Positions 8,652 to 9,905 of a DNA stretch of 9,905 bases are shown piece by piece. Within the stretch, counting starts at the first letter, position 1. Each line of letters starts with the position of its first letter. The stretch comes from Caldilineaceae bacterium (GTDB taxonomy: Bacteria > Chloroflexota > Anaerolineae > Caldilineales > Caldilineaceae). The translations under genes and the position numbers were made by a program. The stretch is from positions 1 through 9,905 of the forward strand of contig JAAUPU010000041.1 in assembly GCA_012032975.1 (NCBI GenBank). The letters are read 5' to 3'. The notes beneath the pieces are model-generated. The model was not told where the DNA came from, did not search any database, and worked only from the letters and a program-made list of their open reading frames with translations.

Positions 8652-9905
8652 ATGGAAGTTAAGAATTTCGACGCCATCCGCATCTCCCTCGCCTCGCCCG
8701 AACAGATTCGCGAGTGGAGCTACGGCGAGGTCACCAAGCCCGAGACCATCAACTACCGCACCCTGCGCCCCGAGCGCGATGGTCTCTTCTGTGAACGTAT
8801 TTTTGGCCCCACCAAGGACTGGGAATGCTCCTGCGGCAAATACAAGCGCGTCCGCTACAAGGGCATCGTTTGTGACAAGTGCGGCGTCGAGGTCGCACCC
8901 AGCCGCGTGCGCCGCGAGCGCATGGGCCATATCGAACTGGCCTCGCCTGTCAGCCACATCTGGTATGTCAAGGGCGTGCCCAGCCGTCTCGGTTTGCTGC
9001 TCAACATCAGCCCCCGACACCTGGAACGGGTGCTCTACTTCGCCCAGTACATCGTCACCAACGTCAACGAAGACGCACGCAGCCGCGCCATCCTGCGCCA
9101 CGAGCGCGAGCTGGCCATGCGCATCGCCCGCATCGACGGCGAAATCCAGGAACAGGTGGACGCCTTCGACAACCAACTCGAAGCCGGTCTCGCCGAACTG
9201 GAAACAGAAGAAGAAGAGTCGGTGCGCACGCTGGACGAACGCATCAACCAGGAATCGTCGGGCGTCATCGCCGAAGCCCAGACCTTACAGACCTGGCTGC
9301 AAAGTCGCGTCGGCAAAAAGGCGGGCGAGGACAAGTTTCTCAGTTGGTCTGACCAGCCTGTGGTCCAGGCCGCAGAGACCCTCTCCGCCGACCACGACAT
9401 CCTCATCAACGAACTGGTCCAGGACAAGCTCAACGACCTCCAGGCCGAGTCCGATGCGGAAAAAGCCGACATCCGTCTGCTCATCGCGGCCAAGCGCGAG
9501 CATGTGCGCGGCGAACTGGGCGCCCACGGCGACGAACTGCGCGCCAGCGTCGAGGAGCGCAAGGAGAAGTTGCGCGGCCAAATGGAGCGCGACCTGGAAG
9601 ATCTCAAGTCTCTGGAAGAGAAGCAGCTTGTCACCGAAACCCGCTACCGCGAGCTGGCCGACCGCTATCCCGACGCCAAGGTGATTCTCAGCCTGCGCGA
9701 TCCGGACAAGTGGTTCGACAGCTGCCAGAATACCATCTTCCGCGCCATGCGCCTCGACCACGCCGACGCGCCGGCCAATATCCGCACCCAGATCGCCATG
9801 GTGCGCAAGCTGGTGGTCGAGGATACGTTCGGCGGCGACATCGACGACCGCGCCCATGCCATCTCTGTCTACAACCGCCACAACGAGACCGTGAGGCAGG
9901 TGATC
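8652..9905 (+). CDS. rpoC: RNA polymerase beta-prime subunit, N-terminal part, continuing into a sulfotransferase-like segment; open at the window edge
   Basis: RpoC forms the other half of the RNA polymerase cleft. ATG at 8652 follows AAGGAG (8635-8640) by 11 bases. Residues 1-130 are typical: [19 protein letters not shown], the zinc site Cys59, Cys61, Cys74, Cys77 (CSCGKYKRV to VCDKCGVE), and [19 protein letters not shown]. Residues of about 135-330 form a long charged coiled-coil insertion, as in several phyla outside Proteobacteria, ending in the expected [12 protein letters not shown]. From residue 340 the same frame reads [18 protein letters not shown] and later [19 protein letters not shown]. 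These are not RpoC; they match the core of a PAPS-type sulfotransferase. The clamp helices, active-site loop (NADFDGD) and the rest of beta-prime do not appear by base 9905. The first 339 residues are confidently rpoC. The remainder is probably foreign to it. Confidence 0.93.
9669..9905 (+). other. Sulfotransferase-like coding segment joined in frame to rpoC
   Basis: The 79 residues from Pro340 of the rpoC frame resemble the middle of a P-loop sulfotransferase, which moves sulfate from PAPS to an acceptor. [19 protein letters not shown] has the form of the 3'-phosphate-binding region, with Arg349 and Ser357 as the usual contacts. [20 protein letters not shown] and [11 protein letters not shown] follow as in that family, probably the Sulfotransfer_4 group. 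The N-terminal P-loop that should precede it is absent, so it cannot be a whole enzyme here. The frame stays open to the window edge. It is most likely the body of an unrelated gene joined at ELADRY. Confidence 0.7.

Follow-up and report, generated by a model that had tools for sequence, protein, structure and literature searches.

An rpoC-sulfotransferase reading frame at the end of a Caldilineaceae-like contig is probably an assembly chimera

Introduction

As described in a review (PMC7299287), unrelated sequences that have the same k-mers may become joined in de Bruijn graphs, which yields chimeric contigs. The locus analysed here resembles such metagenomic chimeric contigs in four respects: it combines two organisms, it does so at a short word, the foreign piece lies at a contig end, and the product is a singleton. 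The window, i.e. the whole stretch of DNA that we analysed, contains a long frame whose first 338 residues, including a characteristic insertion, are like those of Caldilineaceae RpoC proteins. In contrast with those proteins, however, RpoC similarity stops at the join, and everything that follows the insertion is missing. The rest of the frame resembles sulfotransferases of the Sulfotransfer_4 family (PF17784), of the type found in Iodidimonas and Sphingomonadales, but it is devoid of their N-terminal P-loop. With both a PF04997 and a PF17784 match, the 418-residue singleton is an apparent two-domain protein in the collection, and it could pass for a new fusion.

Results and discussion

Contig and gene content

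The window corresponds to one whole contig of 9905 bases, and the sulfotransferase tail runs off its right end (Table 1). The order of mraZ-rsmH relative to rpoB-rpoC is that of two Caldilineaceae loci, L001 and L002 (tblastn). Up to the join, the contig is assigned by its sequence to a Caldilineaceae-like member of the Chloroflexota.

Table 1. Features of the 9905-base window
Feature	Position	Strand	Basis or remarks
Penicillin-binding protein, two frames	dimerisation domain in ORF 400-1299, transpeptidase in ORF 2-625	minus	Pfam
ORF without Pfam match	1343-2068	minus	
MraW/RsmH methylase, two frames	2274-2699, 2761-3171	minus	Pfam
MraZ	3245-3685	minus	Pfam
rpoB, three frames	4591-6825, 6822-7361, 7361-8494	plus	RNA polymerase beta domains in each
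rpoC start and tail, open frame	8652-9905	plus	418 codons, no stop, off contig end
RpoC (beta-prime) N-terminus, residues 1-338, with coiled-coil-like insertion as in Caldilineales relatives	8652-9665	plus	PF04997, tblastn
Join zone (C)TACCGCGAGCTGGCCGACCGCT, encoding YRELADR, a word natural to either gene; no more than 23 bases in common	9644-9666	plus	
Join word of the rpoC/sulfotransferase switch, CTACCGCGAGCTGGCCGACCGCT			
Sulfotransferase fragment (Sulfotransfer_4), probably of alphaproteobacterial type, no P-loop, off contig end	9666-9905	plus	PF17784, P0007 identity, GC3

The RpoC part

Pfam analyses placed RNA_pol_Rpb1_1 (PF04997), the N-terminal Rpb1 domain 1 of functional RpoC proteins, at residues 4-168 of the frame (E 4.9e-33; model positions 2-139 of 312), and they identified no further RNA polymerase domain after it. 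The NCBIfam RNA polymerase models matched only within residues 2-199, with scores far below the full-length cut-offs, as is expected of a fragment. In tblastn searches, residues 1-339 aligned without gaps with the RpoC of Caldilineaceae (79% identity to L002 and 77% to L001), and the L003 locus aligned as two pieces in different frames, which cover residues 1-138 and 177-339. Similarity stops at residue 339 in all three loci. By these alignments, the RpoC part ends at residue 338 or 339 of the frame, out of about 1600 in RpoC proteins (1607 in L002). The RpoC domains beyond that point are absent, including the catalytic centre, which lies after residue 339 in RpoC.

The RpoC insertion was matched in 41 of the 46 Caldilineales genomes, with a single match in each; hence, second rpoC copies are not usual. 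Since the best insertion matches are only 66% identical, no intact rpoC of the source species was found among the genomes and protein clusters searched.

The sulfotransferase tail

Residues 332-417 match Sulfotransfer_4 in Pfam (E 1.4e-16; positions 81-174 of 215), including the central block with the LRDPDKW motif. The segment 9651-9905 on its own yielded an E-value of 7e-17 with the same family and no match to NCBIfam models; PF17784 was found in none of 14 control genomes. In a protein search whose query length allowed hits of 208 residues, the tail was 93% identical to P0007, a protein of that length, and 63-87% identical to the next 18 proteins (P0008-P0025). Four of the latter carry organism names, namely Iodidimonas sp. 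SYSU 1G8, two Sphingomonadales MAG fragments and an Alphaproteobacteria MAG; Iodidimonas is itself alphaproteobacterial.

Together with the join zone, the tail corresponds to residues 75-161 of P0007 (87 residues aligned). Residues 1-74 of P0007, which harbour the GAGFGRTGTLSLK loop, have no counterpart in the window fragment, and the final 47 residues of a P0007-type protein would fall past the contig end. The tail is thus devoid of the PAPS-binding loop that functional Sulfotransfer_4 enzymes have at their N-terminus (GAGFGRTGT in relatives).

A native Caldilineales sulfotransferase was considered as the source of the tail and rejected, because identity within the order is 33-39% (four matches, in 3 of the 46 genomes) as opposed to 93% to P0007. 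Judging from these similarities, the donor was probably another member of the community, an alphaproteobacterium. Searches for its DNA gave a single match in plasmid records, of 79% over 90 bases (Nonomuraea gerenzanensis, L050), and nothing in viral contigs, and the 21 plasmid records identified by tblastn were all under 60%. The two parts of the frame therefore differ in taxonomic origin, as the parts of an assembly chimera do.

The tail also stands apart in base composition, with a GC3 of 0.91. Native GC3 values range from 0.56 to 0.87 over 305 overlapping 85-codon stretches taken from six segments (the three pieces of rpoB, the rpoC part, mraZ and ORF 1343-2068). None of the 305 reaches the tail value, a count that should not be read as a probability since the stretches overlap.

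The description of this locus in the earlier note, as rpoC running in frame into a sulfotransferase that has lost its P-loop, thus agrees with the succession of PF04997 and PF17784, with the end of the RpoC alignments and with the part of P0007 that is missing. The profile search, which by that note would have refuted a chimera had it placed residues 340-418 within RpoC, assigned residues 332-417 to Sulfotransfer_4.

A short word common to both genes

RpoC relatives often have the sequence RYRELADRW at the end of the insertion. YRELADR is found in 19 of 30 distinct Caldilineales RpoC loci and, from residue 75, in P0007, which bears out the earlier proposal that the join string is natural in both families. 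The switch had been placed in ELADRY (9651-9668). That location is correct, but on the left the common word begins as early as 9645, as YRELADR, and the Y that closes ELADRY (9666-9668) agrees with the sulfotransferase rather than with RpoC, as W occupies this position in 30 of 30 RpoC loci.

We determined the longest common word for 570 pairs of proteins, made up of 30 RpoC frames and 19 sulfotransferases. It measures three to seven residues and sits at the place of the join in 442 pairs; the maximum of seven was reached in 22 pairs, at the join in every case. When sulfotransferases were shuffled (n=300), the longest common word had three to five residues in 298 cases, six in two and seven in none.

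At the DNA level, the window 23-mer (9644-9666) is present with one or two mismatches in 12 of the 46 Caldilineales genomes, at the same place in rpoC in 11 of the 12. No exact copy was found in the 46 genomes, and the reversed pattern, used as a control, gave one match. Thus, a short word natural in both sources lies at the join as far as the proteins are concerned, and as far as DNA is concerned for rpoC only, with the one or two mismatches. If the source rpoC has TGG after the word, the common stretch is at most 23 bases long, because it is bounded on the left by an Arg codon in RpoC versus a Tyr codon in the sulfotransferase and on the right by TGG versus TAT. The value of 23 is a maximum that we derived from the window itself, from RpoC relatives and from the P0007 protein. 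The donor sulfotransferase gene would carry the identical DNA word.

Continuation of the frame in relatives

After W, the 30 Caldilineales loci continue with GNVF, GNIF, GTVF, GSVF or SSVF, versus PDAKVIL after the Y of the window. These loci are the distinct ones read among the 41 matching genomes, and L001-L003 duplicate three of them. Twenty of 26 further RpoC clusters continue in frame with W-G, including two (P0072 and P0075) that drop out of frame a few residues later. By the place of the join, two others (P0069 and P0084) have already lost the frame, and four (P0080, P0085, P0086 and P0087) have ended.

According to precomputed domains, PF17784 is absent from these 26 clusters, which match the RpoC insertion and comprise proteins of 230-731 residues. 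Similarly, among six proteins in the same size range that match the sulfotransferase part, only that of the window has both domains. Relatives with the same fusion, which the earlier note regarded as part of the evidence against a chimera, were thus sought and amount to 0 of 30 Caldilineales loci and 0 of 26 clusters, although an evolved fusion would be expected to show the same junction in independent relatives. The 418-residue protein is represented by one sequence from one contig in the searched collection, and no paper on an RpoC-sulfotransferase fusion was identified in the literature searched, as judged by titles.

The only argument for a functional RpoC-sulfotransferase fusion protein is its uninterrupted reading frame. 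We consider such a protein extremely unlikely, because it would lack all of RpoC after residue 339 and the first 74 sulfotransferase residues with the nucleotide-binding loop; furthermore, it is not seen in relatives.

The open frame, with no stop across the junction, is also consistent with real recombination or transfer, in which a sulfotransferase fragment would have entered one rpoC copy, giving a dead allele or one that lies beside an intact rpoC, and joins at microhomologies do occur in nature. Nevertheless, most of the beta-prime subunit would be lost from an essential and usually single-copy gene, DNA from another lineage would be needed since the relatives of the tail lie outside Caldilineales, and no other protein of 230-731 residues with this fusion was found. 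Real recombination therefore appears very improbable. The more specific scenario of a Caldilineaceae rpoC allele cut by microhomology-driven capture of an alphaproteobacterial sulfotransferase, and tolerated thanks to an intact rpoC elsewhere, is if anything harder to credit.

Origin of the join

The join in frame 8652-9905 is very probably artificial and does not represent a new fusion protein. Its likely origin is an assembly chimera between the end of a Caldilineaceae-like rpoC contig and a foreign sulfotransferase tail. The right end of the contig would have been extended across the word of at most 23 bases that encodes YRELADR; the same word would be present in the sulfotransferase gene of another community member, probably an alphaproteobacterium, and the assembler would have taken the wrong branch there. 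Such a wrong turn would leave a short foreign tail at the contig end, which here extends 239 bases past the word, roughly one read length. If k is small, two paths of a de Bruijn graph can already be fused by a word of 22-23 bases; however, assemblers often finish contigs with words longer than 23 bases, which counts against a join of this kind.

The in-frame continuation would follow by itself, because the phase of the common word does not differ between the two genes. As the phase of the word keeps the frame, the in-frame fusion is no sign of function. More generally, the case illustrates how in-frame chimeras can arise in GC-rich genomes from words that unrelated conserved genes have in common. 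The frame matters only as a warning, nothing functional having been made. The order of likelihood given in the earlier note, with an assembly chimera ahead of real recombination and a functional fusion last, is supported by the two origins, the common word, the lack of the fusion elsewhere and the position of the tail at the contig end.

The main rival to a join by the assembler is a chimera made in the library. The rpoB gene is broken near 6815 (6798-6825) and near 7328 (7320-7335) and is uninterrupted in L001 and L002; these breaks are probably sequencing or consensus errors. Relative to the same two loci, rsmH (minus strand, 2740-2815) harbours a frame change between 2795 and 2812 (near 2800) and an in-frame stop near 2745-2747. 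The penicillin-binding-protein gene (minus strand, 560-680) changes frame near 630, a region that L001 ends too early to show directly. In the rpoC part, comparison with L001 and L002 revealed no frame break. The quality of the contig is thus poor, with three other genes that normally must work being frame-broken.

These breaks suggest noisy or low-coverage reads, among which chimeric reads may survive. A test-tube chimera could have arisen by template switching in amplification (PCR or MDA) at a short common word, or from a ligated or unsplit long read. The short common word favours template switching as well as an assembler join. Ligation, on the other hand, needs no common word, yet the join is located at a seven-residue word of both genes. 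Overall, a library origin appears rather unlikely, and we infer that the assembler created the join.

Homopolymers of at least six bases are absent from the 9905 bases of the window. Runs of six occur at about 0.4-0.5 per kb in L001 and L002 and are absent from L003 and L010; the missing homopolymers are thus a weak sign, given that L003 and L010 are also devoid of them.

Frame losses were also observed in relatives. The rpoC gene of Anaerolineales bacterium UBA5069 (L003:1381-2539) seems to be frame-broken too, as it aligns in two frames. In addition, among the 22 relatives whose sequence continues beyond the word, four (P0069, P0072, P0075 and P0084) lose the frame at the YRELADRWGNVF stretch or shortly before or after it. 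A local hot spot of frameshifts where the insertion ends was considered and rejected for now, because the search favours truncated proteins; it is also weakened by P0075, which by eye departs from the frame elsewhere too. The losses in these four proteins are probably due to selection by the search, which was limited in protein length, combined with noisy assemblies.
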